A stretch of 64,000 bases of DNA from Rhodocyclaceae bacterium (lineage in GTDB: Bacteria > Pseudomonadota > Gammaproteobacteria > Burkholderiales > Rhodocyclaceae): positions 60,787 to 124,786 of the forward strand of contig JAGTRP010000010.1 of the NCBI GenBank assembly GCA_018261935.1. Direction: 5' to 3'. Below, one piece after another: positions 1,918 through 36,924 of the stretch. The notes under the pieces are model-generated. The model searched no databases and had not been told where the DNA came from. It worked only from the letters and a program-made list of their open reading frames with translations. A program made the translations under genes and the position numbers. Each line of letters opens with the position of its first letter. Position 1 is the stretch's first letter.

Positions 1918-3492
<1,575 letters not shown>

Positions 3493-21984: not shown

Positions 21985-22410
21985 TCATGACTGCCCCCGT
22001 AGCCAGACCTGGGTCGCCATGTCGTCCTGGCGCTTCTGCTCCCGCGCTTCCCTCGCCCGCTGGTGGCGGTTTTCCTGGCGGACCAGGAACTGGCTCAAGG
22101 CCTCGTGCTGGCGGAAGGCGGCGGTGAGGGCGTTCTGGCTCACCGCCATGTCGGCGTCGTGGAGGGCGAGTTCCTCCCGGTGGGCGGCGGCCAGGGTCAT
22201 CACGGCCTGCTTGTAGTCGCCGCAGTTCATGGACAGGGCGGGGGACCAGGCGCCGCTGGCGCCGGTGCTGTGGCACAGCTGCTCCAGGCGCTCCAGGTTC
22301 CTGCGGTAGCGCTCCCGCAGGCGCTCCTTGCTGGCGACTTCCGAGGTCAGGCGGTCCACTTCCTGCTCCCGCAGGTCCGCCAGGCGGTTCAGGCTGGTCT
22401 GGGATTTCAT
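21985..22410 (-). CDS. fliJ: Flagellar export protein FliJ
   Basis: FliJ (141 aa) is a coiled-coil protein that acts in the centre of the FliI ATPase ring. Nearly all of the sequence is charged helix (LADLREQEVDRLTSEVASKE; LRERYRRNLERLEQL). It starts overlapping the fliI stop by 4 bp and ends the fliE-F-G-H-I-J operon, the usual position of fliJ. Confidence 0.9.
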   Translation of the reverse strand: MKSQTSLNRLADLREQEVDRLTSEVASKERLRERYRRNLERLEQLCHSTGASGAWSPALSMNCGDYKQAVMTLAAAHREELALHDADMAVSQNALTAAFRQHEALSQFLVRQENRHQRAREAREQKRQDDMATQVWLRGQS

Positions 22411-23717
22411 GCCGTCAACTCCTCGAGTTGTTGCAGGGTTTCCACCAGGGGGGCGGCTTCCCGGGTCCCCTGGTGGAGGAAGGCTTCGATCCGGGGCCAG
22501 CGTTCCACCGCCCGGTCGGTGGCCGGGTCGGCCCCCGCCACGTAGGCGCCCAGTGGGAGCAGGTCCCGGACCTGGGCGTGGCGGGCCGCCATTTCCTTCA
22601 GCCGGTGGGCCGCCGCCCGGTGTTCGGGGGAGGCCACCAGGCCCATGCAGCGGCTGACCGAGGCGGCGATGTCGATGGCCGGGTAGTGGCCGCGCTCGGC
22701 CAGTTCCCGGGACAGGACGATATGGCCGTCGAGGATGGCGCGGGCCGTATCCACCACCGGGTCCTGCTGGTCGTCGCCTTCGGCCAGGACGGTATAGATG
22801 GCGCTCATGCTGCCGCTTTCCGCCTCGCCGTTGCCGGCGCTTTCCACCAGTTGGGGCAGGAGGCTGAAGACCGAGGGCGGGTAGCCCCGGGTGGCGGGCG
22901 GCTCGCCGAGGGCCAGCGCCACTTCGCGCCGGGCCATGGCGTAGCGGGTGAGGGAATCCACCAGGAGCAGCACGTCCTGGCCCTGGTCCCGGTAATGGGC
23001 GGCGATGGAATGGCAGAGGTCGGTGGCCATGAGGCGCATCAGGGGCGACTCGTCGGCCGGGGCAACCACCACCACGGCGCGCTTGAGGCCTTCCTCGCCC
23101 AGGGAGAGATCGATGAATTCCCGCACTTCCCGGCCGCGCTCGCCGATCAGGCCCACCACCACCACGTCGGCCACGGTCTGCCGGGTGATGAGGCCCAGCA
23201 GCACGCTCTTGCCGACGCCGCTGCCGGCCATGAGGCCGACCCGCTGGCCCTTGCCGAGGGTCAGGGTGGCGTTGATGGCGCGCACGCCGACATCGAGGAT
23301 TTCCCGCACCGGCTGCTTGCGCAGGGGATGGACCCGGGGCGGCTGGGGTTCCAGGGGATGCTCGCCCCCCAGGCGGCCGAGGCCGTCGATGGGCTCGCCC
23401 AGGCCATTGACGATGCGCCCCAGCCAGGAGGGGCCGATCTGCAGGGCGCTGCGCTCCGGGGCCGGGACGACCCGGGCGCCGGTGGCGAGGCCCTCGGGCT
23501 TCTTGAAGGGCATCAGGAAGGAGACCTGGTCGCGGAAACCCACCACCTGGGCGGCCAGCCAGTCTCCGGAGACGGTTTCAATCAGGCAGCGCTGACCGGT
23601 GCGCAGGGGGCAGCCGACGCTTTCCAGGAGCAGCCCGGAAGCTCCGGTCAGGCGGCCGGTGAGGGTGGCTACCGGGACTTCGGCCAGATGGAGCTTGCGG
23701 ATGGCGGCACCGATCAT
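22407..23717 (-). CDS. fliI: Flagellar export ATPase FliI
   Basis: FliI (436 aa) energises the flagellar secretion apparatus. It has the Walker A motif GLMAGSGVGKSVLLG, DVVVVGLIGERGREVREFI, Walker B DVLLLVDSLTRYAMARREVAL, and GEPPATRGYPPSVFSLLPQL, all F1-beta-like hallmarks of the family. It overlaps fliH and fliJ by 4 bp each. Confidence 0.97.
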   Translation of the reverse strand: MIGAAIRKLHLAEVPVATLTGRLTGASGLLLESVGCPLRTGQRCLIETVSGDWLAAQVVGFRDQVSFLMPFKKPEGLATGARVVPAPERSALQIGPSWLGRIVNGLGEPIDGLGRLGGEHPLEPQPPRVHPLRKQPVREILDVGVRAINATLTLGKGQRVGLMAGSGVGKSVLLGLITRQTVADVVVVGLIGERGREVREFIDLSLGEEGLKRAVVVVAPADESPLMRLMATDLCHSIAAHYRDQGQDVLLLVDSLTRYAMARREVALALGEPPATRGYPPSVFSLLPQLVESAGNGEAESGSMSAIYTVLAEGDDQQDPVVDTARAILDGHIVLSRELAERGHYPAIDIAASVSRCMGLVASPEHRAAAHRLKEMAARHAQVRDLLPLGAYVAGADPATDRAVERWPRIEAFLHQGTREAAPLVETLQQLEELTA

Positions 23718-24388
23718 GCCTCGACCTCGGGCTGGTCAGCCATTTCCAGGAGCTGGGCGCTCACCTGCTCGATGCACGCCGCCAGGCGCTGCTTGCAGCC
23801 GGCATCGGCTTCATGGCCGCCGGCCTTGACTCGGCATTCCCCCGGCTCCATGCGGGGATCGGCGATGAGGTTCCAGCGCTGGGCCTTCTCGGGGGCGAGT
23901 TCGCAGATGCGGTCCAGCTCTTCGGGGTTGAGATAGACCTCTACCTCGTCCAGGGTGGCCGGCATGGCGCCCAGGGTCTCGTCCACCAGGGCGAGGAGCT
24001 GCACCGGCTGGAGGGCAAGTTCGCAACGGATCACCTGGCGGGCCACCTTGGCCACCAGTTCGACTACTTCCTGGCGCAGGGCGGACTGATAATCGTGCCG
24101 CAGCTGCTGGAGGCTCTCCAGCATCGCTTCCACCGGCTGGGCGAGGTTGTCGAAGTGGGCCAGGGCTTTCTGGCGTCCTTCCTCAATGCCTTCGTTGCGG
24201 CCCTCGATGTGGCCATCCTGCCGTCCCATGCGCAGCCCGCTTTCGTAGCCCTCCCGGTAGCCTTTGTCCATGCCTTCCTGGAAGCCGTCGGCGCAGGCCG
24301 CCTGCAGCTCCGCCGGCGAGCCGGCCAGGCCCCGGGCGCCGGCGGCGACCTGGGAGAGGGGAGGGAAGCGGTGGGGCCGCATGTTCAT
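23714..24388 (-). CDS. fliH: Flagellar export regulator FliH
   Basis: FliH (224 aa) binds FliI and controls its ATPase. The central region is rich in regularly spaced glycines (GFQEGMDKGYREGYESGLRM, GRQDG, GRNEGIEEGR), the GxxxG-type helix repeats typical of FliH, followed by the conserved C-terminal domain (LRQEVVELVAKVARQVIRCEL). The ATG at 24388 forms an ATGA overlap with the fliG stop; a longer frame runs through fliG and is not credible. Confidence 0.92.
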   Translation of the reverse strand: MNMRPHRFPPLSQVAAGARGLAGSPAELQAACADGFQEGMDKGYREGYESGLRMGRQDGHIEGRNEGIEEGRQKALAHFDNLAQPVEAMLESLQQLRHDYQSALRQEVVELVAKVARQVIRCELALQPVQLLALVDETLGAMPATLDEVEVYLNPEELDRICELAPEKAQRWNLIADPRMEPGECRVKAGGHEADAGCKQRLAACIEQVSAQLLEMADQPEVEA

Positions 24389-25410
24389 TCGACGACGGCC
24401 TCGGCGAAGAGCTGGATTTCGATTTCGCCGGCATCGGCCAGGGCCTTCACCTGGGCCATGATTTCCTGGCGCATCTGCTCGACGCGGCTCAGGGGAACCG
24501 GGCCGGTGCGCCGCATCAGCTCCTCGAAGCTCTGGGCCTGGCGGCGGGGCATGGCCTGCAGCACGGCGCTGCGGACGGCCGGTTCGGCACCCTTGAGGGC
24601 GATGGCCCACTGGTCGAGGGGGATGTCCTCGATGATGCGGGTGATGACGGTATCCGACTGGCGCGACAGGATGAAGAAGTCGTACATGCTGGCCTCGATC
24701 CCGGAAACCACCTCGGGATCCCGGGCCCGCAGCAACTCGACCATCTGTTGGCGGCTGCCGGGCAGGCGATTGAGGATGTCGGCCGCCTGGCGCACGCCTT
24801 CGACGCTGGCGCTCTGGGCGCCCAGGCTTTCCAGGCAGCGGCCGACCACTTCCTCCAGTTCCACCAGCAGTTCGCTGTCCACCTCGTTCAAGCGGGCGAT
24901 ATTGAGGAGGACGAGATCGCGCCCTTCGTTGGGCAGGGCGTGCATCACCTCGCTGGCCATGGCCGGCGGCAGGAAGGCGAGGAACACCGCCTGCATGCGC
25001 ACGTGCTCGCCGGCGATGCGGTCGGCGATCCACTTGGGGGACGCCCATTGCAGCCGGGCCATCTTGGGCCGGATGGCGTCGCCGTAGATATTGTTCAGGA
25101 CGCTGCTGGCGATGTCGCTGCCCAGGGCCAGGTCGAGGGAACGCTTCAGGTAGGAGCGGGAGGCGCCATGGACGCCGCTCTGCTCCCGGTACTCGTCGAA
25201 GAAGCGCTGGATGGCGTGCTTTACCGATTCCACCTTGATGCCGCTCATGCGGGACATCACCTGGGTGACTTCCAGCAATTCTTCCCGGGCCAGGCAGCGG
25301 AGCACGGCGGCGGCGGGTTCCTCGCCCATGCTCAGGAGGACGATGGCGGCCCGCTCGACCGGGGTCAGGGTGGAGGCTGCGCTATCGGCGGAATTATTGG
25401 GCTTGCTCAT
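24385..25410 (-). CDS. fliG: Flagellar motor switch protein FliG
   Basis: FliG (341 aa) couples stator to rotor. It shows the N-terminal FliF-binding domain (LTPVERAAIVLLSMGEEPAAAVLRCL), the middle domain (HALPNEGRDLVLLNIARL) and the C-terminal torque domain (LDQWAIALKGAEPAVRSAVLQ, MPRRQAQSFEELMRRTGPVPL). It overlaps fliF by 17 bp at its start and fliH at its end. Confidence 0.97.
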   Translation of the reverse strand: MSKPNNSADSAASTLTPVERAAIVLLSMGEEPAAAVLRCLAREELLEVTQVMSRMSGIKVESVKHAIQRFFDEYREQSGVHGASRSYLKRSLDLALGSDIASSVLNNIYGDAIRPKMARLQWASPKWIADRIAGEHVRMQAVFLAFLPPAMASEVMHALPNEGRDLVLLNIARLNEVDSELLVELEEVVGRCLESLGAQSASVEGVRQAADILNRLPGSRQQMVELLRARDPEVVSGIEASMYDFFILSRQSDTVITRIIEDIPLDQWAIALKGAEPAVRSAVLQAMPRRQAQSFEELMRRTGPVPLSRVEQMRQEIMAQVKALADAGEIEIQLFAEAVVE

Positions 25411-27097
25411 TTTTCTGTACCCATTGCTTGACGACTTCGGCCACCCGCTCGGGCTCCTTTGCGGCCAGGACCTTCAGGTGATCGACCATGACATCCACCG
25501 GGGAGCCGGCGGGGGGCAAGTCGTAGTTTTCGAGGAGGGGCACCACCGGCATCCCGACCGGGTTGGGGGAGCCGGGGAGTCCCAGGGCGGCCGGCGCCTC
25601 TTCGGCGGGGAGGGCCTGGGCCGCTTCCAGTTCGGCGGCCTCCCGTTGGGCGGCCTCGAATTCGTCGGCGTCGATCAGGGGCACGGGCGCCAGGCGCTGC
25701 TGGGCGATCCTGAGGAGCGGGCGGGCCACCAGCAGATAGGCGAGCAGCATGCCGAGGGCGGAGACAGCCCAGGAGCCCATTTCGATCTGTTTGTCGCGTT
25801 CTTCCCACCAGGGCACGGGCTCCGCCTTGGCCGGGAAGGGGAGGGCGGAGACGGTGAGCTTGTCGCCCCGTTCGGCATTGATCCCCAGGCCCGCGCTCAG
25901 CATGCGTTCGACGCCTGCGATATCCTCGGCGCTCCAGGCCGCCTTGCCGCCCGGGACGACCGAGGTGTTGAGGAGCACGGCGACATTGAGCCGCTGCAGG
26001 CGGCCGCGGCTGCGCTTGATCTGGCTGATGTTGCGGTCGTAGGTGTATTGGCGGGTGGTAGCGCTCTTCTGGGCGGTGTTCGCTTCCGGGGCGGCGGCCT
26101 TGTTGGCGTCCGGCTCCGGCGGGGCGACGGCGATGGGGCGGTTGCTCAGGGAACCGGGGACGCCGAGGGCCAAGCGGTCCCGGTCCTGTTCCTGGCGCAT
26201 CGCCTCGCTCATGACCTTGGGGGTGGCGCCGTACTGTTCGTGGGTTTCCTGGATGCGGTCGTTATCCACCTCGGCGGTGACGCTGACCTTGTAGTTGTCC
26301 TCGCCGACCACGGGGGCGAGCAGCTCGCGGACGTTGCGGCGGGTTTCCTCCTGGATGCGCCGGGCCGGTTCGTTGTCCTGGCCGGCCTCGAAGCCTTCGG
26401 TCAGGTCCACCCGGGCCGACAGGAAGTTGCCGGCCTGGTCCACCAGCTTGACCCGTTGCGGATCGAGGCCGGCGACGCTGCCGGCCACCAGGTTGATGAT
26501 GGCGGCAATCTGTTCGGGGCCGAGGCTGCGGCCCGGCTTGAGAGCCAGCACGACGGAGGCGGTGCTCTTCTCGCCATCGCTGGCGACAAAGGAGGACGAC
26601 TTGGCGATGGCGACATGGACCCGGGCCGATTCCACGGCATCCAGGGTCATGATGCTCTGGACGAGCTCGCCTTCCAGGGCGCGGCGAAAGCGCACGTCCT
26701 GCACGAACTGGCTGACGCCCAGGGGATCGTTGCGGTCCATCAGCTCCAGCCCGGCCGGCAGCTTGGCGACCACGCCCTTGGCCGCCAGCAGCATGCGGGC
26801 CTTGCCCAACTGGCCGTCGGGCACCAGCACCTGGCCGTTGTCGGGATGGACGCGGTAGGGAATGTGCTCGGCATCGAGGACGGCCATCATGTCGGCGGCG
26901 GCGACCTTCTCCCGGCCGCCGAAGACCGGCTTGTAGCCGGCCTGCTCCCGCCACAGGAACATCAGCACCAGGGCGGTGATGCCGACTGCGAGCAGGGTGA
27001 GGGGCAATAGCGTCTTCAGGAGGTTAGGGGTGAGCAGCGGCGCGCCGCCGGCGGGGAGCCGCAGGCGGGAGAGGAGGGGTTTGATGGTGGCGATCAC
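25394..27097 (-). CDS. fliF: Flagellar MS-ring protein FliF
   Basis: FliF (567 aa) forms the MS ring. It has a first transmembrane helix around residues 28-50 (LLPLTLLAVGITALVLMFLW), ring-building domains containing YRVHPDNGQVLVPDGQLGKA and RARVHVAI-like ARVHVAIAKSSSF, a second helix near residue 440-460, and a C-terminal FliG-binding tail (LLENYDLPPAGSP through VVKQWV). It begins 19 bp after fliE. Confidence 0.97.
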   Translation of the reverse strand: MIATIKPLLSRLRLPAGGAPLLTPNLLKTLLPLTLLAVGITALVLMFLWREQAGYKPVFGGREKVAAADMMAVLDAEHIPYRVHPDNGQVLVPDGQLGKARMLLAAKGVVAKLPAGLELMDRNDPLGVSQFVQDVRFRRALEGELVQSIMTLDAVESARVHVAIAKSSSFVASDGEKSTASVVLALKPGRSLGPEQIAAIINLVAGSVAGLDPQRVKLVDQAGNFLSARVDLTEGFEAGQDNEPARRIQEETRRNVRELLAPVVGEDNYKVSVTAEVDNDRIQETHEQYGATPKVMSEAMRQEQDRDRLALGVPGSLSNRPIAVAPPEPDANKAAAPEANTAQKSATTRQYTYDRNISQIKRSRGRLQRLNVAVLLNTSVVPGGKAAWSAEDIAGVERMLSAGLGINAERGDKLTVSALPFPAKAEPVPWWEERDKQIEMGSWAVSALGMLLAYLLVARPLLRIAQQRLAPVPLIDADEFEAAQREAAELEAAQALPAEEAPAALGLPGSPNPVGMPVVPLLENYDLPPAGSPVDVMVDHLKVLAAKEPERVAEVVKQWVQKNEQAQ

Positions 27098-27116: not shown

Positions 27117-27461
27117 CTAGAGCTGCAGTCTGATGAGTTCGTCGAAGGCGCCGACCACCTTGTTGCGCACCTGCATCAGCATGGAGAAGGAGAGGCTGGC
27201 CTCCTGGCTGGCGAGCATGGCGCCCACCAAGTCGTCGCTGCGGCCGCTGTCCACCGCCGCCAGCTTGTCGGATGCCGCCTGTTCCTTGGCATCGACGCCA
27301 TGGACGGCCTCCTTCATGGCATCGGCGAAGGAGACGCCGGCATCGGCGCCGCCATGCCAGGCGGTGGGCGGGGCAGAGATGCCGCTGGGGGCGATGGATG
27401 ACAGATCGGCCTCGATGCGGTCCAGGTCGGCCCGGATCAGGACTCCCAGTTCATTTCCCAT
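27117..27461 (-). CDS. fliE: Hook-basal body complex protein FliE
   Basis: FliE (114 aa) links the MS ring to the rod. The C-terminal signature SLSFSMLMQVRNKVVGAFDELIRLQL is typical, as is FADAMKEAVHGVDAKEQ. GGAG lies 6 bp before the ATG. It is the first structural gene of the fliE-J operon; an upstream short frame (27451-27636) ends inside its first codons, which would couple their translation. The transcript begins with a c-di-GMP riboswitch. Confidence 0.95.
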   Translation of the reverse strand: MGNELGVLIRADLDRIEADLSSIAPSGISAPPTAWHGGADAGVSFADAMKEAVHGVDAKEQAASDKLAAVDSGRSDDLVGAMLASQEASLSFSMLMQVRNKVVGAFDELIRLQL

Positions 27462-27636
27462 GGCAGCTCCTTAAGTTCGCCGCGAAGCCGGTCGCCTTTG
27501 ACTGGTGGGAGGGATGGGCAGATGCGCGAAACGATGACAGAAGGGATGGCGCGAGCGCGACGCCAACGGGCTGCCCGGCCGCCGGAGCGGAGCTCTGGGC
27601 GCAGTAGGGCTTGGATGAGACTGCGGGTTCGATCAT
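27451..27636 (-). CDS. Possible leader ORF downstream of the fliE-side riboswitch (61 aa)
   Basis: The frame starts with ATG preceded by GGAAGGCG (good Shine-Dalgarno) and begins MIEPAVSSKP, the same ten residues as the leader frame on the fliM side; after that the two diverge. Its stop codon lies just inside the fliE start, a coupling arrangement. The body resembles no family I know and may be a vestige of the duplicated leader rather than a functional peptide. Confidence 0.35.
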   Translation of the reverse strand: MIEPAVSSKPYCAQSSAPAAGQPVGVALAPSLLSSFRASAHPSHQSKATGFAANLRSCHGK

Positions 27637-27667
27637 GTCGCCTTCCAGTGAGCGGTTGAGCCGAGGG

Positions 27668-27702
27668 AAAAAGCCCTGTGCCATAGCCTTGGAAGGTCGC
27701 AG
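27668..27702 (-). terminator. Candidate riboswitch-controlled terminator, fliE side
   Basis: On the minus strand a CTG...CCTT/AAGG...CAG stem is followed by GGG-C-TTTTT. The stem is weaker than its mirror copy on the fliM side because a few bases differ. It lies about 80-110 nt after the aptamer and would be a natural expression platform. Folding has not been computed. Confidence 0.35.
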
Positions 27703-27784
27703 CCGCCGGAATCGGCGACGGAGGACAGCTAGTTCGACCGCCGGGCGTTTATCCGGCCTGCTGCCGGCAGTGCCGACGGCGTCG

Positions 27785-27870
27785 TTCTAGTCTGGCAACC
27801 CCGCTATCGTAGTCCGTGAGGACCGTAGACCGGAGGCTTTGCGACCCCGGCTTTCGCGCGGGTTTGCCCT
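27785..27870 (-). ncRNA. Cyclic di-GMP-I (GEMM-I) riboswitch in the fliE operon leader
   Basis: Read on the minus strand this contains the hallmarks of the class I c-di-GMP aptamer in order: AGGGCAAACC, a GAAA tetraloop in a GC-rich stem (GCGCGAAAGCC), TCGCAAAGCCTCCGG with the tetraloop receptor, a second hairpin (GGTCCTCACGGACT), and TAGCGGGGTTGCC closing the structure. It starts about 7-12 nt after the predicted transcription start and precedes fliE by about 320 nt. Identical over 86 nt to the copy at 28239-28324. Confidence 0.92.
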
Positions 27871-27882
27871 GATTTGGGAGTT

Positions 27883-27912
27883 ACTCTAACTGGGGTTTAG
27901 AAGGTATGTCAA
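27883..27912 (-). promoter_or_regulatory. Sigma-70-type promoter of the fliE operon leader
   Basis: On the minus strand TTGACA (27912-27907), 18 bp, then TAGAGT (27888-27883). The predicted start falls just upstream of the riboswitch aptamer at 27870. The -35 is a perfect match, so this is the stronger-looking of the two divergent promoters. Confidence 0.6.
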
Positions 27913-27992
27913 TAATATTTTTTACAGTTTCTTACATTTCGAATAAAAGGAGTTGAGTAGGGGAACGGTCGGTTGAGTGGGTGGTATGGTTC

Positions 27993-28020
27993 TTCTTATT
28001 TGATTGAAATCAAATAAGAA
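27993..28020. promoter_or_regulatory. Perfect 12-bp-arm AT-rich palindrome between the divergent promoters
   Basis: TTCTTATTTGAT, loop TGAA, ATCAAATAAGAA: a perfect 28-nt dyad, followed on the plus strand by ATTATTTTTT. It could be an operator for an unknown regulator of the fliE/fliM divergent promoters. The T-run also allows an intrinsic terminator on the plus strand, though no gene reads into it from the left. Confidence 0.6.
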
Positions 28021-28030
28021 ATTATTTTTT

Positions 28031-28044
28031 ACCCCGATCGGGGT
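28031..28044. promoter_or_regulatory. Perfect 14-bp palindrome, operator candidate
   Basis: ACCCCGATCGGGGT is fully self-complementary and sits 10 bp beyond the AT-rich palindrome, near the middle of the divergent intergenic region. Its GC-rich content inside AT-rich DNA makes it stand out. The regulator is unknown. Confidence 0.5.
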
Positions 28045-28171
28045 GAGGAGGGTTTGCCCAGGGGCTGCGTTAAATCCCTATGAATAAAGTGGTTATTTGC
28101 CGTCATTTCTCAAATAATCGTCCAGAATGCCGCATCAAGCCTTGAATCAGGCTCCTGCCAGCGTCAGATGA

Positions 28172-28210
28172 CGCCAAGATCAGCATAAAAATATGATTGC
28201 TATCTTGGCG
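28172..28210. promoter_or_regulatory. Dyad overlapping the fliM-side promoter
   Basis: CGCCAAGAT at 28172-28180 is mirrored perfectly by ATCTTGGCG at 28202-28210, separated by 21 bp (centre-to-centre 30 bp, about three helical turns). The right half overlaps the end of the -35 hexamer and the spacer of the fliM-side promoter. No equivalent was seen at the fliE-side promoter. Confidence 0.5.
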
Positions 28211-28226
28211 AAGATCGGTTTATAGT
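28198..28226 (+). promoter_or_regulatory. Sigma-70-type promoter of the fliM operon leader
   Basis: TTGCTA (28198-28203), 17 bp, TATAGT (28221-28226). The predicted start near 28233 lies a few bases upstream of the riboswitch aptamer at 28239. Confidence 0.6.
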
Positions 28227-28238
28227 CGCGCCAAAATT

Positions 28239-28324
28239 AGGGCAAACCCGCGCGAAAGCCGGGGTCGCAAAGCCTCCGGTCTACGGTCCTCACGGACTAC
28301 GATAGCGGGGTTGCCAGACTAGAA
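28239..28324 (+). ncRNA. Cyclic di-GMP-I (GEMM-I) riboswitch in the fliM operon leader
   Basis: The plus strand carries AGGGCAAACC, GCGCGAAAGCC (GAAA tetraloop), TCGCAAAGCCTCCGG, a GGTCC/GGACT hairpin, and TAGCGGGGTTGCC, in the order and spacing of class I c-di-GMP aptamers. It begins directly after a predicted promoter and leads toward fliM, whose ATG is about 315 nt downstream. Whether ligand turns expression on or off cannot be read from the sequence alone. Confidence 0.92.
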
Positions 28325-28413
28325 TGACGCCGTCGGCACTGCCGCCGGCAACGCGGGCGGGTACAAAATGCAACCCAGTCGAACTAGCTGTCCTCCGTCG
28401 CCGATTCCGGCGG

Positions 28414-28446
28414 CTGCGACCTTCCAAGGCTGTTGCAGGGCTTTTT
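28414..28446 (+). terminator. Candidate riboswitch-controlled terminator, fliM side
   Basis: CTGCGACCTT pairs with AAGG..GTTGCAG (one small bulge, some G-T pairs), followed by GGC-TTTTT. It lies about 90 nt after the aptamer, before the leader ORF. It could be the expression platform. Confidence 0.4.
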
Positions 28447-28477
28447 CCCTCGGCTCAACCGCTCACTGGAAGGCGAC

Positions 28478-28594
28478 ATGATCGAACCCGCAGTCTCATC
28501 CAAGCCCAGTCCCGACCCGGCGCCGTGGAAACGTTCGTCGTTCGCCGCAGCGGCATTCGCCTTTGGATGGCACCTTTTCCCCTGGACAGCGTAG
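28478..28594 (+). CDS. Possible leader ORF downstream of the fliM-side riboswitch (38 aa)
   Basis: An ATG with GGAAGGCG upstream opens a 38-codon frame starting MIEPAVSSKP and ending in a hydrophobic, Trp-containing tail (AFAFGWHLFPWTA). It is in the same frame as fliM but separated from it by TAG and TGA stops. Shared with the fliE-side leader only for ten residues. It may be a regulatory leader peptide or a remnant of an older first gene. Confidence 0.35.
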   Translation: MIEPAVSSKPSPDPAPWKRSSFAAAAFAFGWHLFPWTA

Positions 28595-28639
28595 GACGGT
28601 GCCGGTCAATGATTTCGACGTATAACGTGGTGTTTCGGC

Positions 28640-29497
28640 ATGAAATATAAGAAACCATATATTGGCCGTTCATCGTATCAAGTCATGGATCCCCGCACCC
28701 TGGGGCGTCCGGTGCATCTGCTGCGCCATTTCGCCGCGCAGTTGCGAGAAGACTTGGCGGCCGCATTCCACGCCGGCTTCAATCGCCGTTACCGGGCGAA
28801 TTTCCAGGTCGGGGAGGTCACCATGGCGCCCATGGAAAGCACGGCCCCACCCGGGCGCTGGCTGGCCTACGGAACGTCCCTGGGCCGCATCGGCTACGCC
28901 CTGGAACGCAGGGTGTTGTTGAGCGTCCTGACCTACCGCTACGGCCTGGCCGATGGCGAAGGGGGTGCCGGTGCCGCCGAACCTCCGCCCGAGACGGTCA
29001 CCGAAGAGCGCCTCTCTGCCATGCTCGGCCTGCAGCTGGTGAATGCCCTGGCGGCCCGGGTCGAGGCCGGGGCAGGGGATGGGGAAGCCCCCCGGCAGCA
29101 CGAGTTCGGCCCCCTCGGTCCCGCCGGCGCCCCTCGGGGCGGCTGGCTGGTCCGGACCACCGTCCGGGAAACCATCCACGATGTCGAGGGCGCGCTGTGC
29201 TTTGCCCTGGACGATGCCTGGATGGCCAGGCTGCTGCAGAAGCTGGCGCCGGAGCGCCGGGGCAAAGCCCGCGCCCCCGGGGCCCCGCTGCCGGCGCGCC
29301 TGCACCTCAACCTGGTGGCCCGCCTGCTGCAGAAGCATCTTTCCCTGGGCGAGCTGCTGGATATCCGGGTCGGGGATGTGATTCCCGTCAGTCTGCGGGC
29401 GACCGATGTACTCATCGACGACTCGCGGCTGTTCACCGCCACGGTCGCCGAACACAAGGGCAAGCTTTGTCTCACCTCTTTCGAAGATGCGGAATGA
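28640..29497 (+). CDS. fliM: Flagellar motor switch protein FliM, lateral-type, lacking the CheY-binding N terminus
   Basis: At 285 aa this is shorter than usual FliM (~330). The C-terminal SpoA domain is recognisable (LGELLDIRVGDVIPVSLRATD, then GKLCLTSFEDAE). The middle domain is divergent (LRHFAAQLREDLAAAFHAGF; LERRVLLSVLTYRYG). The N-terminal CheY-P-binding peptide (LSQxEIDALL type) is absent, and an in-frame TGA at 28610 prevents a longer N terminus. No clear Shine-Dalgarno precedes 28640; ATG 28685 (MDPRTLGRP) is an alternative start. It is the first gene of fliM-N-P-Q-R-flhB-flhA. Confidence 0.82.
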   Translation: MKYKKPYIGRSSYQVMDPRTLGRPVHLLRHFAAQLREDLAAAFHAGFNRRYRANFQVGEVTMAPMESTAPPGRWLAYGTSLGRIGYALERRVLLSVLTYRYGLADGEGGAGAAEPPPETVTEERLSAMLGLQLVNALAARVEAGAGDGEAPRQHEFGPLGPAGAPRGGWLVRTTVRETIHDVEGALCFALDDAWMARLLQKLAPERRGKARAPGAPLPARLHLNLVARLLQKHLSLGELLDIRVGDVIPVSLRATDVLIDDSRLFTATVAEHKGKLCLTSFEDAE

Positions 29498-29501
29498 ACC
29501 T

Positions 29502-29876
29502 ATGGATATGACAGAAAAGACCGCCGTGGACGCCCTGCTGGCCGATCTTCAGGAACACGCCGGCGATGCCGATGCCGACGGCGATGGGGCCGTTGCCCAG
29601 GCAGCAGGACGACCGGGGCGTAACCTGACCCAGATGATGCGCAAGATCCCGGTCACCCTGACCCTGGAAGTGGGGGCGGCGCGGGTATCCCTGCAGGATT
29701 TGCTGACCATCGGGATGGACAGCGTCGTCGAACTCGACACCCTGGCCGGAGAACCGCTGGTCATCAAGGTCAACGGCACCCCCATCGGCCGGGCGGAGGT
29801 GGTCGTGGCCGGCGAGAATTATGGTCTCAAGGTAGTCGAAATCAGCGACCTGGACCTCGACACCTTGCAGCGATGA
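29502..29876 (+). CDS. fliN: Flagellar motor switch protein FliN
   Basis: FliN (124 aa) builds the C-ring with FliM. The SpoA domain is clear: MMRKIPVTLTLEVGAARVSLQDLL, then VVELDTLAGEPLVIKVNG and GRAEVVVAGENYGLKV. The N-terminal 45 residues are acidic and variable. The ATG at 29502 lies four bases after the fliM stop; longer starts would overlap fliM. Its end overlaps fliP by 4 bp, leaving no room for fliO. Confidence 0.94.
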   Translation: MDMTEKTAVDALLADLQEHAGDADADGDGAVAQAAGRPGRNLTQMMRKIPVTLTLEVGAARVSLQDLLTIGMDSVVELDTLAGEPLVIKVNGTPIGRAEVVVAGENYGLKVVEISDLDLDTLQR

Positions 29877-30643
29877 GACGTGCCCTAGCCAGCCCCGCTC
29901 CCTGGTCGGGTGCGGCCGCCTGTCTCGGGCTCCTGTCCCTGGCGCTCGTGTCCGTGCCTGCCTGGGCGGAGCCCCTCAAGGTCCTGAGCAGCAGCGGCGG
30001 CGCTACCACGGAGTTTACGGTCAAGACCCAGGTCCTGATCATCATGACCCTGCTCGGGCTCCTGCCCGCGCTGGTGCTGATGATGACTAGCTTCACCCGC
30101 TTCGTCATCGTCCTCTCCCTGCTGCGCCAGGCCCTCGGACTGCAGCAGGGGCTGCCCAACCGCATGGTGACGGGCATCGCCCTCATCCTCACTTTCCTGG
30201 TGATGCGGCCGGTGGGCGAGCAGATCTGGCAGGAGGCTTTCGTGCCCTACGACCAGGACAAGATCGGCCTCGGAGAGGCCCTGAAGATCGCCGAAGCGCC
30301 GCTGTCCCGGTTCATGCTGGCCCAGACCAGCAAGAGCGCCCTGGCCCAGGTTTCCGGCTTGGCCCGGGAAGGGGCGGTGGCCAAGCCCCAGGACCATGCC
30401 TTCACCGTCAAGCTCGCCGCCTTCGTGTTGAGCGAGCTGAAGACCGCCTTCCAGATCGGCTGCATGCTGTTCATTCCCTTCCTGGTCATCGACCTGGTGG
30501 TGTCCTCGGTGCTGATGGCCATGGGCATGATGATGCTCTCGCCCCTGGTGATCTCGCTGCCCTTGAAACTGCTCCTCTTCGTGCTGGTGGATGGCTGGAC
30601 CCTCACCGTCAGCACCCTGGTCTCCAGCGTGCAGGCCTTCTGA
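29873..30643 (+). CDS. fliP: Flagellar biosynthetic protein FliP
   Basis: FliP (256 aa) is a core export-gate membrane protein. It has a cleavable signal peptide (ending near AWA, residue 32), then transmembrane segments with LLPALVLMMTSFTRFVIVLS and the family motifs LGLQQGLPNRMVTGIALILTF and FQIGCMLFIPFLVIDLVVSS. It overlaps fliN and abuts fliQ. Confidence 0.98.
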   Translation: MRRALASPAPWSGAAACLGLLSLALVSVPAWAEPLKVLSSSGGATTEFTVKTQVLIIMTLLGLLPALVLMMTSFTRFVIVLSLLRQALGLQQGLPNRMVTGIALILTFLVMRPVGEQIWQEAFVPYDQDKIGLGEALKIAEAPLSRFMLAQTSKSALAQVSGLAREGAVAKPQDHAFTVKLAAFVLSELKTAFQIGCMLFIPFLVIDLVVSSVLMAMGMMMLSPLVISLPLKLLLFVLVDGWTLTVSTLVSSVQAF

Positions 30644-30915
30644 TGCTGACCCCCGAAATCGCCGTCGACCTGGTCAGCGAAAGCCTGCACCTGGTCATGC
30701 TGATGGTCGTGCTGCTGATCGTGCCGGGGCTCGTCATGGGCCTCCTGGTCAGCCTGTTCCAGGCCGCCACCCAGATCAACGAGCAGACCCTCAGCTTCCT
30801 GCCGCGGCTCCTGGTGACCCTGGTGGTGCTGAGCGTCTCCGGGCACTGGATGGCCAGCTCCCTGATGGATTTCTGCGTTTCGGTCTTCCAGCGGGCCGCC
30901 CGGCTGGTCGGCTGA
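30643..30915 (+). CDS. fliQ: Flagellar biosynthetic protein FliQ
   Basis: FliQ (90 aa), an export-gate component with two transmembrane helices, contains LVPGLVMGLLVSLFQAATQ-type sequence (VPGLVMGLLVSLFQAATQIN) and EQTLSFLPRLLVTLVVL. Its ATG overlaps the last base of the fliP stop codon. Confidence 0.97.
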   Translation: MLTPEIAVDLVSESLHLVMLMVVLLIVPGLVMGLLVSLFQAATQINEQTLSFLPRLLVTLVVLSVSGHWMASSLMDFCVSVFQRAARLVG

Positions 30916-30941
30916 CGGTCGGAAGGGAGCACGGAGCCGCC

Positions 30942-31724
30942 ATGGAAATGGTCTTCAGCCAGCTGCTCTCCTTGCTGAGCGCCCTGTGGTGGCCCTTCTG
31001 CCGGGTCCTGGCGGCCCTCGCCGCGGCCCCAGTGCTGGGGGAAACCATGGTGCCGGTGACGGTGCGGGTGCTGCTGGCCCTGGTCCTGGCGGTGGCCCTG
31101 CTGCCCGCCGTGCAGACGCCCCTGGCCATCGATCCCTGGTCTATGCAGGGGGTAATGGCCAGTGTCCAGGAGGCCGTCATCGGTTTCGTGCTGGGGATGG
31201 CCTTCCATCTCGTCATGGCCATCGTCATGGTGCTGGGCTACCTGGTCTCCTCCCAGATGGGGCTGTCCATGGCAGTGATGAACGACCCCCTCAACGGCAC
31301 CTCCTCGGATGTGGTCTCCACCCTGTTGTCCATCCTCTTCATCCTGGTCTTCTTCGCGGTGGACGGGCACCTGGTATTCACCGGCGTCATCGGCGCCAGT
31401 TTCCGCGCCTGGCCGGTGGGGACCGGCATCGAGCTGCTGTCCCTGCAGACCCTGGCCTTCAACGTCGCCTGGGTGTTCTCGGCCGCCATGCTCCTGGCCG
31501 TGCCGGTCATTTTCTCGACCCTGGTGGTCCAGTTCGGCTTCGGCTTCCTCAACCGCATCGCGCCCTCGTTCAACCTGTTTTCCCTGGGATTCTCCCTGGT
31601 CACCCTGTTCGGCCTCTTCATGCTCTCCCACCTCGTGCGCTTCCTGCCGGAGCATTACCTGCGCATGACCAACCAGGTGCTGGAGATGCTGCACCAGGGC
31701 TTGCGGGCGGTGCCCCATGGCTGA
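30942..31724 (+). CDS. fliR: Flagellar biosynthetic protein FliR
   Basis: FliR (260 aa) is a multi-pass export-gate protein. It has about six hydrophobic segments, with PVTVRVLLALVLAVALLPAV, SSQMGLSMAVMNDPLNGTSS and FLNRIAPSFNLFSLGFSL matching the family. GGAG lies 6 bp upstream of the ATG at 30942. Its end overlaps the flhB start by 8 bp. Confidence 0.96.
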   Translation: MEMVFSQLLSLLSALWWPFCRVLAALAAAPVLGETMVPVTVRVLLALVLAVALLPAVQTPLAIDPWSMQGVMASVQEAVIGFVLGMAFHLVMAIVMVLGYLVSSQMGLSMAVMNDPLNGTSSDVVSTLLSILFILVFFAVDGHLVFTGVIGASFRAWPVGTGIELLSLQTLAFNVAWVFSAAMLLAVPVIFSTLVVQFGFGFLNRIAPSFNLFSLGFSLVTLFGLFMLSHLVRFLPEHYLRMTNQVLEMLHQGLRAVPHG

Positions 31725-32841
31725 GTCGTCCAGTGCCGACAAGAGCGAAAAGGCCTCGCCCCAGAAACTCCGGAAGGCCCGGGAGCAGGGGCAGGTGGTC
31801 CGTTCCCGGGACCTGTCCACCACCATCGGCATCCTGGTCAGCCTCAAGCTCATCGTGCTCCTTGCCCCCGCCTACCTGGAAGACTTCCGGGAGCTGTTCG
31901 GGCAGAGCTTCGCACCCCTTGCCGGCGAAGGCGGCCTGGAGAACGCCTGGTCCATGGCCTTCGCGGGGGCCATGCTGCTCTTCATCAAGATGATCCTGCC
32001 CCTGTTCGCCGTTCCCGCGGCCATCGTGGTGGGTTCCCTGTTTCCCGGCGGCTGGGTCTTCAGCTCCGTCCATTTGACCCCGCGCCTCGATCGCCTCGAC
32101 CCGGTGAGCAACCTGGGGCGACTTTTTTCTGGCAAGCGGGTGGGGGAGGTGGCAGTCTCCATCGTGAAGGCACTGACCCTTGGTGCCGTGCTGGTGTACG
32201 TCAGCCGCGGCACCGTCACCGACTACCTGCGCCTGCAGGGCATGCCCCTGGACCAGGCGCTGCTCCACGGCGCCGGCCTGGTGATCGACGGCCTGATGGC
32301 CCTGTGCCTGGTCTTCGTCCTCTTCGCCTTCATCGACCTGCCGGTGCAGAGCTTCTTCTTCCTGCGGGGGCAGCGCATGAGCAAGCAGGAGGTGAAGGAG
32401 GAATACAAGACCAGCGAGGGCCGCCCCGAAGTGCGCCAGCGCATCCGCCAGCTGCAGCGCCAACTCGCCCGGCGCGGCGTGCGCAAGACCGTTCCGACCG
32501 CCGACGCGGTGATCGTCAATCCGGAGCACTACGCCGTCGCCCTCAAGTACGACGAGAACCGGGCCGAGGCGCCCTTCGTGGTGGCCAAGGGTGTGGACGC
32601 CATGGCCCTCTACATCCGGGAAGTGGCCGTCGAGCACGGCGTCCAGGTGGTGCCGATGCCACCCCTGGCGCGGGCCATCTACAACACCAGCCAGGTGAAT
32701 CAGCAGATTCCCGTGCCCCTCTACAAGGCCGTCGCCCAGGTCCTGAATTACGTGCTGCAGCTCAAAGCCTTCCAGTCCGGCCGGCGTACGGCGCCGCCCC
32801 AGTTGCCCGACGATCTCGCCGTTCCCTCGCATCTCACCTAG
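31717..32841 (+). CDS. flhB: Flagellar export switch protein FlhB, with an NPEH cleavage motif
   Basis: FlhB (374 aa) controls export substrate switching. The N terminus (DKSEKASPQKLRKAREQGQV), four transmembrane segments, and the cytoplasmic domain (SKQEVKEEYKTSEGRPEVR) are standard. The autocleavage loop reads VNPEHYAVALKY, with N268-P269-E270-H271 instead of the canonical NPTH. Cleavage between Asn and Pro is still chemically possible, but the Thr-to-Glu change is notable. Confidence 0.97.
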   Translation: MAESSSADKSEKASPQKLRKAREQGQVVRSRDLSTTIGILVSLKLIVLLAPAYLEDFRELFGQSFAPLAGEGGLENAWSMAFAGAMLLFIKMILPLFAVPAAIVVGSLFPGGWVFSSVHLTPRLDRLDPVSNLGRLFSGKRVGEVAVSIVKALTLGAVLVYVSRGTVTDYLRLQGMPLDQALLHGAGLVIDGLMALCLVFVLFAFIDLPVQSFFFLRGQRMSKQEVKEEYKTSEGRPEVRQRIRQLQRQLARRGVRKTVPTADAVIVNPEHYAVALKYDENRAEAPFVVAKGVDAMALYIREVAVEHGVQVVPMPPLARAIYNTSQVNQQIPVPLYKAVAQVLNYVLQLKAFQSGRRTAPPQLPDDLAVPSHLT

Positions 32842-32851
32842 ATTCCAGACC

Positions 32852-34939
32852 ATGAACTTTCTGACCCGCCTGGCCAAAGACCTGCGCAGCTACCAGCCCG
32901 CCATGCCTATCTTCCTGATGGCCATCCTGGCGATGATCATCCTGCCGCTGCCGCCCCTGGTGCTGGATGCCCTGTTCACCTTCAACATCGTGCTGGCGGT
33001 GATCGTCATCCTGGTCAGCGTCTCCAGCCGCCGGCCCCTGGATTTCTCGGTCTTCCCCACCATCATCCTGGCCACCACCCTGCTGCGGCTCACCCTCAAC
33101 GTGGCCTCCACCCGGGTAGTGCTGCTCCACGGCCACGAGGGTACCCACGCTGCCGGCCGGGTCATCGAGGCCTTCGGCAACGTGGTGATCGGCGGCAATT
33201 TCGTCGTCGGCCTGGTGGTCTTCGTCATCCTGATGATCATCAACTTCGTGGTGGTGACCAAGGGCGCCGAGCGCATCTCGGAGGTGTCGGCCCGCTTCAC
33301 CCTGGATGCCCTGCCGGGCAAGCAGATGGCCATCGACGCCGACTTGAACGCCGGCCTCATCAACCAGGAAAAGGCCCAGACCCGGCGCCGGGAGGTGGGG
33401 CAGGAGGCGGATTTCTACGGCGCCATGGACGGGGCCTCCAAGTTCGTGCGGGGCGATGCCGTGGCCGGCATCCTCATCCTGCTGATCAACATGATCGGCG
33501 GCGTCGCCATCGGCGCCCTGATGCACGACCTCTCCTTCGCCGACGCCTTCCGCCAGTACGCGCTCCTCACCATCGGCGACGGCCTGGTGGCCCAGATTCC
33601 CGCCCTGCTGCTGTCGGCGGCGGCGGCCATCATCGTCACCCGCATCAGCGATGCGGACAATTTCGAGCAGCAGGTCGGCCAGCAGCTCCTGGCTTCTCCC
33701 AACGTCCTCTACAGCGCGGCGGCCCTGATGCTGGGCCTGGCCATCATCCCGGGCATGCCGTGGATGACCTTCCTCGGCTTTGCCACCGTCCTGGGCTTCG
33801 TCGCCTGGCGCATGGGGCGCCGGGGCGCCAAACCGGTGGCCGAGATGGCCAACCTCGAGGCGGCGCTGCTGGCGGAGAGTGCGCCGGAACTGGACTGGAG
33901 CGGCCTGCCCTATGTGGAGCCTCTGTCGGTGTCGGTGGGCTACAAGCTGGTGGGCCTCGTGGACCAGGGGCAGGGGGCCCCGCTCTCCAAGCGGGCCAAG
34001 GGCATCCGCCAGACCATCAGCGAGGAAATGGGCCTGCTGCTGCCGCCCATCGCCGTGCGGGACGACCTGGCCCTCAAGCCTTCCCAGTATGTGATCCTGT
34101 TGAGCGGCACGGCGGTGGCCCAGGCCGAGATCTATCCCGACCGCCTGATGGCCATTCCCTCGCCCCAGATCTATGGCGAGGTGGACGGCCTTCCCGCCGT
34201 CGAGCCGGCCTACGGCCTGCCGGTGACCTGGATCGCCCCCGAGGAGAAGGCCCATGCCCTGGGCCTGGGCTACCAGGTGGTCGATCCCGCCAGCATGATC
34301 GCTACCCACCTGGCCAAGGTGATCCGCGACCACCTGCCCGAACTGCTGCGCCACGAGGACGTTCCCGCCCTGATCGAGCGCCTGGGGGCCCAGGCGCCCA
34401 AGCTGGCGGCGGCCCTCGAGAAGGCGCTGACCCACAGCCAGCTCCTGAAGATCTTCCGGGCCCTGCTCACCGAGAATGTCTCCCTGAAGGACATCGTGCC
34501 CATCGCCACCACCCTGCTGGAGAGTTCGGAGACCACCAAGGATCCGCTCCTCCTGGCCGCCGAGGTGCGCTGCACCCTGCGCCGGCAGATCGTGGCCAAG
34601 GTCTGCGGGCAGAACCCCGGCATGAAGGCCTTCAATCTGGGCGGCGACCTGGAGAACATGCTCCTGGGCGCCCTCAACCAGGCGCGCCAGGGCGGCAACA
34701 AGGTGGCCCTGGACAACTATCCCATCGATCCCCAGCTCTTGTCCCAGCTGCAGGTGAACATGTCAGTGGCCTGTGAGCAGATGAAGCAGCAGGCCACCCC
34801 GCCGCTGCTGCTGGTGATGCCCCAGATCCGTCCCCTGCTGGCCCGCTACGCGCGGCTTTTCGCGCCGGGGCTGCATGTCCTCTCCTACAACGAGATTCCG
34901 GAGCAGCGGGAAGTCAGCATCATCGGCTCCCTGGGCTGA
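32852..34939 (+). CDS. flhA: Flagellar export protein FlhA
   Basis: FlhA (695 aa) is the major export-gate protein that docks substrates and chaperones. Multiple N-terminal transmembrane helices and the FHIPEP-family signature (LLRLTLNVASTRVVLL, GAERISEVSARFTLDALPGK, MAIDADLNAGLI) are followed by the cytoplasmic domain (FRALLTENVSLKDIVPIATTLLE). It ends the operon, convergent with the second FliK-like gene and overlapping it by 20 bp. Confidence 0.98.
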   Translation: MNFLTRLAKDLRSYQPAMPIFLMAILAMIILPLPPLVLDALFTFNIVLAVIVILVSVSSRRPLDFSVFPTIILATTLLRLTLNVASTRVVLLHGHEGTHAAGRVIEAFGNVVIGGNFVVGLVVFVILMIINFVVVTKGAERISEVSARFTLDALPGKQMAIDADLNAGLINQEKAQTRRREVGQEADFYGAMDGASKFVRGDAVAGILILLINMIGGVAIGALMHDLSFADAFRQYALLTIGDGLVAQIPALLLSAAAAIIVTRISDADNFEQQVGQQLLASPNVLYSAAALMLGLAIIPGMPWMTFLGFATVLGFVAWRMGRRGAKPVAEMANLEAALLAESAPELDWSGLPYVEPLSVSVGYKLVGLVDQGQGAPLSKRAKGIRQTISEEMGLLLPPIAVRDDLALKPSQYVILLSGTAVAQAEIYPDRLMAIPSPQIYGEVDGLPAVEPAYGLPVTWIAPEEKAHALGLGYQVVDPASMIATHLAKVIRDHLPELLRHEDVPALIERLGAQAPKLAAALEKALTHSQLLKIFRALLTENVSLKDIVPIATTLLESSETTKDPLLLAAEVRCTLRRQIVAKVCGQNPGMKAFNLGGDLENMLLGALNQARQGGNKVALDNYPIDPQLLSQLQVNMSVACEQMKQQATPPLLLVMPQIRPLLARYARLFAPGLHVLSYNEIPEQREVSIIGSLG

Positions 34940-36027: not shown

Positions 36028-36924
36028 TTATTGCATGAGGCTCATGACCAGCTGGGAGAGGCTGCTGCTTTGCTTGAGCATGGAGGTGCCGGCCTGCATC
36101 ATCATCTGCTTGGAGGTCATGTTGGCGGTTTCGGTGGCGTAATCGACGTCCATGATGCGGCCGCGGGCCTGGGTTGTGTTGGTCGAGATGTTCGACAGGT
36201 TGTTATAGACGTGCTCCAGACGGTTGGAGTTGGCACCCAGGGCAGCGCGCATGGTGCCGACGGCGTCGAGGGCGGTATTGAGCTTGGTGATCTCGGCGTT
36301 GGCGCTGCCGGCGGCCGTCAATTCGGTACCGGCTGCAGCCGCCGGCGTGACGTATTGGGCGCTGGCGGCAGTGATGGCGGCATCCAGGGCGTTGAGCGGG
36401 GTCGCCAGCACGGCGGTCATCTGTTCAGCGGCAGTCGCGCCGATCTGGAACTTGATGCCGGCCGCAACGGCCAGCGTGCCGGTACCGGTGCCGGTGCCGG
36501 TGCCACCTGCGGTCAGCAGCGCCTGGCCGTTGAACGAGGTGTTCTTCATGATGTTGTTTAGTTCCTTGCCCATTTCGTCGTATTCCGACTGCATGGAGGC
36601 TTGGTCGGTGGCGGTGGCCGTGCCGTCGGCGGCTTGGGTGGCCAGGTCCTTCATGCGCAGCAGGATGTTGCTGACTTCATTGAAGGCGCCTTCAGCGGTC
36701 TGCATCATGGAGATGGCGTTTTGGGCGTTGCGCATGGCCACGCCCATGCCGCGGGTCTGGGCTTCCATCCGGCTGGCGATTTGCAGGCCGGCGGCGTCGT
36801 CCATGGCGGAATTGACGCGGTAGCCCGTGCCCAGGCGGGCCAGGGAGGTGGAGAGTTCGCTGTGGGTGCGGCCGAGGGCGTTCTGGGTGGAGAGGGAGGC
36901 GGCGTTGGTGTGCAGGCTAAGCAT
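36028..36924 (-). CDS. fliC: Flagellin, LafA-type
   Basis: The 298-aa filament subunit has conserved D0/D1 ends (MLSLHTNAASLSTQNALGRT; AMDDAAGLQIASRMEAQTRG; C-terminal ANMTSKQMMMQAGTSMLKQS, LSQLVMSLMQ). MLSLHTN and the short central domain resemble lateral flagellins (LafA) rather than typical polar or enteric flagellins, from memory of those families. The centre contains a GTGTGTGT stretch from hexanucleotide repeats. It is monocistronic, with a sigma-28-like promoter upstream and a strong terminator downstream; AAGGAGTGA precedes the ATG. Confidence 0.97.
   Translation of the reverse strand: MLSLHTNAASLSTQNALGRTHSELSTSLARLGTGYRVNSAMDDAAGLQIASRMEAQTRGMGVAMRNAQNAISMMQTAEGAFNEVSNILLRMKDLATQAADGTATATDQASMQSEYDEMGKELNNIMKNTSFNGQALLTAGGTGTGTGTGTLAVAAGIKFQIGATAAEQMTAVLATPLNALDAAITAASAQYVTPAAAAGTELTAAGSANAEITKLNTALDAVGTMRAALGANSNRLEHVYNNLSNISTNTTQARGRIMDVDYATETANMTSKQMMMQAGTSMLKQSSSLSQLVMSLMQ
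36475..36505. repeat. Hexanucleotide tandem repeat inside the flagellin gene
   Basis: About five units of GTGCCG/GTACCG encode (Gly-Thr)n in the surface-exposed middle of flagellin. Each unit is two codons, so changes in copy number keep the frame and would only alter length. Confidence 0.7.

Follow-up and report, generated by a model that had tools for sequence, protein, structure and literature searches.

Two GEMM-I riboswitch aptamers, the class for cyclic di-GMP (c-di-GMP), are located between the flagellar genes fliE and fliM of a Rhodocyclaceae bacterium, on opposite strands and facing away from each other. They were found in a stretch of 64,000 nucleotides (nt), positions 60,787 to 124,786 of the forward strand of contig JAGTRP010000010.1 in assembly GCA_018261935.1. 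This whole stretch is called "the window" below, and coordinates refer to it unless another contig is named. The aptamers form an inverted, near-identical pair, of which the fliM-facing member is likely the duplicate. Both are predicted to bind c-di-GMP and would likely turn down the two early operons of a lateral flagellar system together when the c-di-GMP level is high. The probability of this reading was estimated at roughly 0.55.

A sequence-only reading of the window had proposed two outward-facing GEMM-I aptamers at this place, which agreed with the result of a comparison to the Rfam covariance models by cmscan. The fliM-facing aptamer at 28231..28318 (+) reached 77.2 bits (E = 1.9e-13) and the fliE-facing one at 27791..27878 (−) 76.4 bits (E = 3e-13) against RF01051, with a gathering score of 35, and both matched the model over its full length (1 to 87 of 87). 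An alignment of 29 GEMM-I sequences (A3), which included the plus-strand arm, contained 16 invariant columns, and the minus-strand arm was identical in all of them. The specificity base of the class is a G for c-di-GMP and an A in the variants sensing cyclic GMP-AMP. Both arms read AGGGCAAA, which provides a G at either candidate place for this base. Both aptamers are predicted to bind c-di-GMP. Two aptamers in a single transcript would be a "tandem" riboswitch; the opposite strands and the outward orientation place this pair outside of that arrangement.

The aptamers are parts of the arms of an inverted repeat. The fliE-side arm at 27607..27889 (−) contains the aptamer, most of the leader, and the start of a small open reading frame (ORF), and its counterpart on the fliM side is at 28220..28507 (+). 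Within these arms of about 285 bp, 264 of the 292 alignment columns were identical. The interval 27607..28507 of the sequence-only reading is the outer extent of this repeat, and the identity over 86 nt reported there was exact (27870 to 27785 versus 28239 to 28324). Beyond this first block, two more stretches, of 54 and 72 nt, are identical as well, and the three blocks are set apart by two divergent patches. The 28 differing columns correspond to about 20 events, including insertions and deletions. These events were clustered: when 20 events were placed uniformly in 100,000 trials, no trial gave three longest runs as long in sum.

Between the arms, a segment of 330 bp (27890..28219) holds most of both predicted promoters. 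A sigma-70-like site TTGACA-18-TAGAGT at 27883..27912 (−) matched the consensus at 10 of 12 positions, and TTGCTA-18-TATAGT at 28197..28226 (+) at 9 of 12. Both were in the same register, in that aptamer position 1 is 34 nt from the start of the first hexamer and 5 nt from the end of the second (−10) one, so the claim that each aptamer follows a sigma-70-like promoter holds at the level of prediction. Five such sites were present in 27450 to 28700, compared to 0.6 (standard deviation, 0.7) in shuffled sequences, and the promoters of the aptamers are two of these five. Across the arms, the promoters were alike at only 30 of 60 positions in register; the best local match was equalled by 33 of 2,000 shuffles, and the identity was 47% versus 36% in the aligned flank beyond the repeat. 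Because of this weak similarity, the duplication was not taken to include the promoters. A perfect 13-bp inverted repeat (TTCTTATTTGATT/AATCAAATAAGAA, 27993 to 28020), close to the midpoint of the AT-rich stretch that separates the promoters, is a possible regulator site.

With a predicted promoter upstream and an operon downstream of it, each aptamer would be transcribed as part of a leader. A scan of 27450 to 28700 for sites resembling intrinsic terminators gave none, with 1.5 expected in shuffled sequences, so that an intrinsic terminator as the expression platform, i.e., a terminator-type riboswitch, was rejected. Each leader contains a predicted small ORF, which starts 242 nt (fliE side) or 247 nt (fliM side) from the aptamer start. 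The fliE-side ORF has 61 codons (27451..27636, −) and its stop codon overlaps the fliE start; the fliM-side ORF has 38 codons (28478..28594, +) and ends 45 nt before fliM. The first ten codons are common to both, and neither ORF had a match in Pfam.

To which extent this arrangement is shared was evaluated in the related lateral clusters. A search of the species-genome collection with a FliM alignment of 28 rows (A1) identified 149 stretches encoding this protein. The 80 best ones were retained, and a covariance model (R1) built from the 29 GEMM-I sequences was run over the window, these 80 loci, and one further locus (L062), which gave no match. In 79 of the 80 loci, fliE was upstream of the lateral-type fliM on the opposite strand, and no fliE was detected in the remaining one, L068. 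A strong R1 match on the fliE-facing strand was found in ten loci: L142, L082 (Zoogloea), L065 (Dactylopiibacterium), L071, L077, L092 (Azoarcus), L067 (Aquabacterium), L144, L069 (Aquincola), and L070. In none of the 80 loci did R1 detect an aptamer facing fliM. Two weak matches, in L110 and L103 (E = 0.36 and 0.45), were placed elsewhere and were at chance level. RF01051 itself matched six of seven loci tested out of the 80. In a sample of the family, 14 of 395 genomes, that of the window included, encoded this FliM at E = 1e-20. Among the 13 others, seven had one fliE-facing aptamer in the fetched flank and six had none, and six of these seven contigs were already among the ten loci, which resulted in 11 distinct relatives, L150 being the additional one, with one aptamer facing fliE each. 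GEMM-I aptamers as such are frequent, with 198 of 395 genomes of the family having them and 30 in a sample of 61 relatives.

The single inherited fliE-facing riboswitch of the lateral clusters is the broader finding. The ten loci with the aptamer had a median stop-to-stop frame gap between fliE and fliM of 795 nt, versus 479 nt in the 69 loci without it; the 1,178 nt in the window were measured from start codon to start codon and are thus a different measure. The aptamer core read GGCACAC in the leaders of all 11 relatives versus GGCAAAC in the window arms and in most GEMM-I sequences of A3. Five relatives (L142, L082, L071, L150, and L065) contained, downstream of the fliE-facing aptamer, an ORF of seven or eight codons of the form MNxxILV or MNxxLLV (MNPEILVR in L065); an ORF of this form was not found in the window.

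The sequence-only reading had further assumed that this spot normally carries the gene for the activator LafK and that the riboswitch pair replaces this master regulator. Neither claim was supported. None of the 80 related loci contained an ORF of at least 150 residues with a GAFTGA-type motif of sigma-54 activators, and none was found in the window, both by a motif search only, which degenerate activators would escape. Moreover, fliE and fliM were divergent in 79 of the 80 loci, ten of which already possessed the fliE-facing GEMM-I. Judged from these sequences, what sets the window apart is that an inherited riboswitch was doubled, and not that lafK was substituted. FlhDC was also dropped as a candidate regulator because the FlhC family had no match in the own genome.

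How might such a terminator-free leader act? In the proposed mechanism, the 5' core of the aptamer would pair alternatively with a strand just upstream of the small ORF, as predicted in 9 of the 11 relatives. Bound c-di-GMP would hold the aptamer fold, so that the ribosome site of the small ORF would be hidden and the small ORF would remain untranslated. Expression downstream would then fall by loss of coupling through the overlapping stop and start codons at fliE; otherwise, Rho-type polarity in the long leader may lower flagellar expression. High c-di-GMP would in this way turn down both early operons of the lateral flagellum together, with matched set points, because the two leaders have the aptamer and most of the platform in common. 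The leader would thus be an "OFF" switch, as suggested by the folding predictions and by the general rule that high c-di-GMP opposes motility.

The folding predictions for the relatives are mostly consistent with this mechanism. The leaders of the 11 relatives and of the two window arms were compared, and in 12 of these 13 the best duplex with the aptamer 5' core started 154 to 192 nt from the aptamer start, with L065 differing. The energy of this duplex was compared to 300 shuffles: none was as low in L142 and L070, and 5 to 13 were as low in L082, L071, L092, L065, L144, and L077, a modest result. The energies were ordinary in L069, L150, and L067 (30, 45, and 97 shuffles as low). Equilibrium folding gave the pairing between the core and downstream sequence a higher probability than in 40 of 40 shuffles for L142, L082, L071, L144, and L070, than in 38 for L092 and L069, 37 for L150, and 35 for L077, so that 9 of the 11 relatives favored this long-range helix over 35 or more of the 40 shuffles. 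When the downstream part was folded apart from the aptamer, as it would be next to a ligand-held one, the openness of the ribosome site dropped by 0.18 to 0.34 relative to the free ensemble in 8 of the 11 relatives; the start codons of the small ORFs had been picked by eye, least surely in L144 and L069. Since the MNxxILV or MNxxLLV ORFs of five relatives begin there, this start codon seems to matter.

Several results weigh against this interpretation and need to be considered. The core duplex was unremarkable in the window arms themselves, with 65 (fliE side) and 39 (fliM side) of 300 shuffles as low, and the long-range helix was not favored there, as 24 and 34 of 40 shuffles were at least as high; this was also true for L065 and L067 (29 and 18 of 40). 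The two computed states hid the ribosome site of the window arms to about the same degree (0.23 versus 0.22 to 0.23), and in L065, L067, and L069 the site was less open by no more than 0.03. An open alternative forced onto the window leaders exposed four of the six bases of GGAAGG at a cost of 2.9 (fliE side) and 2.4 (fliM side) kcal/mol, a gap within the usual error of such folding models. The open state could be reachable during transcription but is not predicted to dominate. The counts among the relatives are moreover not independent, because the Zoogloea-like L142, L082, L071, and L150 are close kin, and likewise L077 and L092. The duplex energy between the Shine-Dalgarno (SD) and anti-SD sequences, calculated for 11 leaders with L144 and L069 left out, did not serve as a test: among 300 shuffles, a value as low occurred only 7 and 8 times for the arms and once for L065, versus 38 times for L070, 45 for L067, and 148 to 292 for the other six, so that most of the nine relatives tested did not beat the shuffles. 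The best SD partner in the window arms was not the local hairpin. With the alternative of the window lying 2 to 3 kcal/mol higher and not being favored over shuffles, the "OFF" direction can only be inferred and is the least certain step of the explanation.

This uncertainty bears on the strongest alternative, in which c-di-GMP turns both operons "ON" through the twin sensors, with lateral flagella being made during surface contact or early biofilm growth and the ligand-held aptamer protecting the leader or favoring read-through. It would fit the prediction that the window arms do not open without the ligand, and GEMM-I switches of both directions exist according to PMC6366702 and PMC9262584. 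Against it stands the state with the folded aptamer, which hid the ribosome site more in 8 of the 11 relatives. The rule that high c-di-GMP opposes motility also argues for the opposite direction. The "ON" switch is considered unlikely, albeit the best of the alternatives.

The history of the pair can be derived from the relatives. A FliM tree comprised 87 rows, 12 of which, including the window and L150, bear the aptamer. The aptamer label required three changes versus 11.5 when shuffled, with none of 500 shuffles as low. The window fell among the aptamer bearers on this tree, in which several end branches were long and the root was drawn at the midpoint. The two window aptamers were identical to each other at 80 of 80 compared positions, and the closest relative, L150, shared 70 of 80. 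Because 11 relatives have a single fliE-facing aptamer and none of them one facing fliM, the fliE-facing riboswitch of the window is most likely the old one and the fliM-facing riboswitch an inverted duplicate made in this lineage. The simplest history is an inherited fliE-facing riboswitch that was lost in Oxalobacteraceae and some others and, in the lineage of the window, was copied in inverted orientation towards fliM.

The identity of the arms is a less clear sign. Block 1, the aptamer, is conserved in the relatives (0.82), so that selection may contribute to the identity. Block 3 is identical between the arms and nevertheless only at background level in the relatives (0.34), so that recency or gene conversion must contribute as well. 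The identity of the arms may thus reflect recency and is weakened as a proof of selection, another point against the preferred reading.

Block 3 is also what would be expected if only the fliE-side leader worked and the fliM-side copy were a recent duplication with no regulation yet, or a mere supply of a promoter. Two further observations agree with such a one-sided function: all 80 relatives lack an aptamer on the fliM side, so that the operon needs none there, and the gap of 45 nt between the end of the fliM-side small ORF and fliM leaves no apparent coupling. However, the copied aptamer and the 54-nt block 2 stayed intact while the adjoining patches diverged, and a promoter-like site is positioned in register before the fliM-side aptamer. 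A one-sided function appears improbable, slightly more so than the "ON" switch. That the second arm is an artefact is very improbable: assemblers can be misled by inverted repeats and the genus is represented by one species, but the arms differ by 28 columns in about 20 events including insertions and deletions, and both are inside one contig of 124.8 kb. In the protein database, this FliM is moreover recorded for two contigs, the longest of 127.8 kb.

A joint "OFF" control remains the preferred reading. Since near-identical sensors head each operon, both operons would likely answer to the same signal, and a regulation from both sides at once, as the sequence-only reading had proposed, can fairly be inferred from the sequences. 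More specifically, inverted copying of the whole leader across the divergent promoters may have placed the two halves of the machine under the control of one messenger by way of matched RNA sensors, with the membrane-supramembrane (MS) ring, rotor base, and ATPase in one half and the switch ring and export gate in the other. In this scenario, which has about even chances, gene conversion perhaps kept the arms alike, and recombination between the arms could flip the 330-bp segment and swap the promoter strengths.

The calls for the genes on both sides, made with NCBIfam and Pfam, supported one aptamer per early operon (fliE-F-G-H-I-J and fliM-N-P-Q-R-flhB-flhA). On the minus strand, fliE (27117..27461; TIGR00205, 72.7 bits, cut-off 30) heads the run that continues with fliF, fliG, fliH, fliI, and fliJ (21985..27097). 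On the plus strand, the divergent lateral-type fliM (28640..29497), a weak match to TIGR01397 far below the cut-off of this standard model (23.7 versus 219.6 bits), is followed by fliN, fliP, fliQ, fliR, flhB, and flhA (29406..34939). The curated NCBIfam cut-offs were passed by fliE, fliF, fliI, and flhA; fliN was slightly below (82.7 versus 84.05), and fliG and flhB were also below. The Pfam cut-offs were passed by fliN, fliP, fliQ, fliR, fliH, and fliJ. FliM had 1,222 database relatives, and the organisms named among the 120 listed included Rhodocyclaceae, Azonexus, Herbaspirillum, and Aquincola. The remaining flagellar set occupies about 4.5 to 36.9 kb of the window, with FlgD, FlgE, FlgK, and other hook and rod genes, some assigned by eye, and FliD, FliS, a FliK-type protein, FliL, a sigma-28 gene, MotA, MotB, FlgM, FlgN, and flagellin. 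FlhA is encoded on two contigs of the own genome, C4 and C18, with the C4 copy scoring 898 versus 778 bits and presumably representing the primary flagellar system. The genome thus contains a second full flagellar gene set beside another, i.e., a lateral (secondary) flagellar system.

The own genome also has 55 GGDEF matches, a point in favor of the preferred reading. A dCache-GGDEF protein (37033 to 38493, −) is encoded just upstream of the lateral flagellin (36028 to 36924). On inspection by eye, the GGDEF motif of this protein has a degenerate form, WSGEQI, and an RxxD (RNSD) is present five residues before the motif, so that the protein perhaps acts as a c-di-GMP receptor and not as an enzyme. 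It is not claimed as part of the system, as only 1 of the 80 related loci had a GGDEF match within the 10-kb flank. A third GEMM-I of the own genome (L003, C3:38379-38467, −, 66.3 bits) precedes the ORF of a small Sel1-repeat protein, the start of which resembles a signal sequence by eye; when extended mechanically, this ORF overlaps the aptamer. Because of its position, this third aptamer was rejected as a flagellar riboswitch.

Compared to known systems, the riboswitch class is known and the arrangement is new. Both arms are full-length, high-scoring members of RF01051, but as inverted copies on opposite strands before two operons of one machine, with no terminator-like site. That GEMM-I aptamers occur upstream of flagellar genes, as the sequence-only reading had noted, is known from Cd1 of Clostridioides difficile, which PMC6366702 and PMC9262584 describe as an "OFF" switch before the flgB operon acting by transcription termination. 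Cd1 and the window share a position before early flagellar genes and, as proposed for the window, the "OFF" direction (PMC6366702). Cd1 is, however, single and uses a terminator, whereas the window leader is long, terminator-free, contains a small ORF, and is doubled on both strands. The c-di-GMP family is enriched for tandem riboswitches, according to PMC12452182. Tandems likewise have two nearby copies sensing one ligand, but act in series on one transcript, whereas the window copies head separate divergent transcripts. Pairs of GEMM-I matches on the same strand, about 2.2 to 2.4 kb apart, were seen in G216:C1, G257:C1, and G236:C1.

A divergent GEMM-I pair as such is not unique in the family. 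Another genome (G035; L160, contig C41) contains outward-facing GEMM-I aptamers on opposite strands at 2926-3005 (−) and 3245-3329 (+), about 240 nt apart, which differ from each other in length, score, and G+C content; their neighbors are an uncharacterized ORF and, by eye, a pentapeptide-repeat-like ORF and not flagellar genes. A close likeness is to the betaproteobacterial lateral clusters of Zoogloea (L082), Azoarcus (L092), and Aquincola (L069), with the same place, strand, and gene order, a sigma-70-like promoter just upstream (by eye), and a long leader with a small ORF; they differ by the single aptamer, the GGCACAC core, and the sequence of the small ORF. The LafK-type lateral systems of Vibrio and Aeromonas also are second flagellar sets with the fliE and fliM operons side by side, but the sigma-54-activator motif is missing from the window and the 80 loci. 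Among the papers listed in literature searches, which covered few subscription papers, there was no report of an outward-facing riboswitch pair on one system or of GEMM-I in betaproteobacterial lateral clusters, which is weak evidence.

The lateral clusters of the 11 relatives each have one inherited GEMM-I facing fliE, in a long leader that includes a small ORF but no terminator, and they provide a natural series for the mechanism of terminator-free GEMM-I riboswitches. Similarly, no terminator or anti-SD sequence is evident in the Vc1 leader of Vibrio cholerae, the mechanism of which was called unclear in PMC4744006 and was still open at the time of that paper. If both leaders in the window respond, c-di-GMP would act through RNA on both operons simultaneously and control the second flagellum at the first building step, in an organism with a further flagellar gene set. 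This would show how a riboswitch can be recruited to a second operon by inverted copying.

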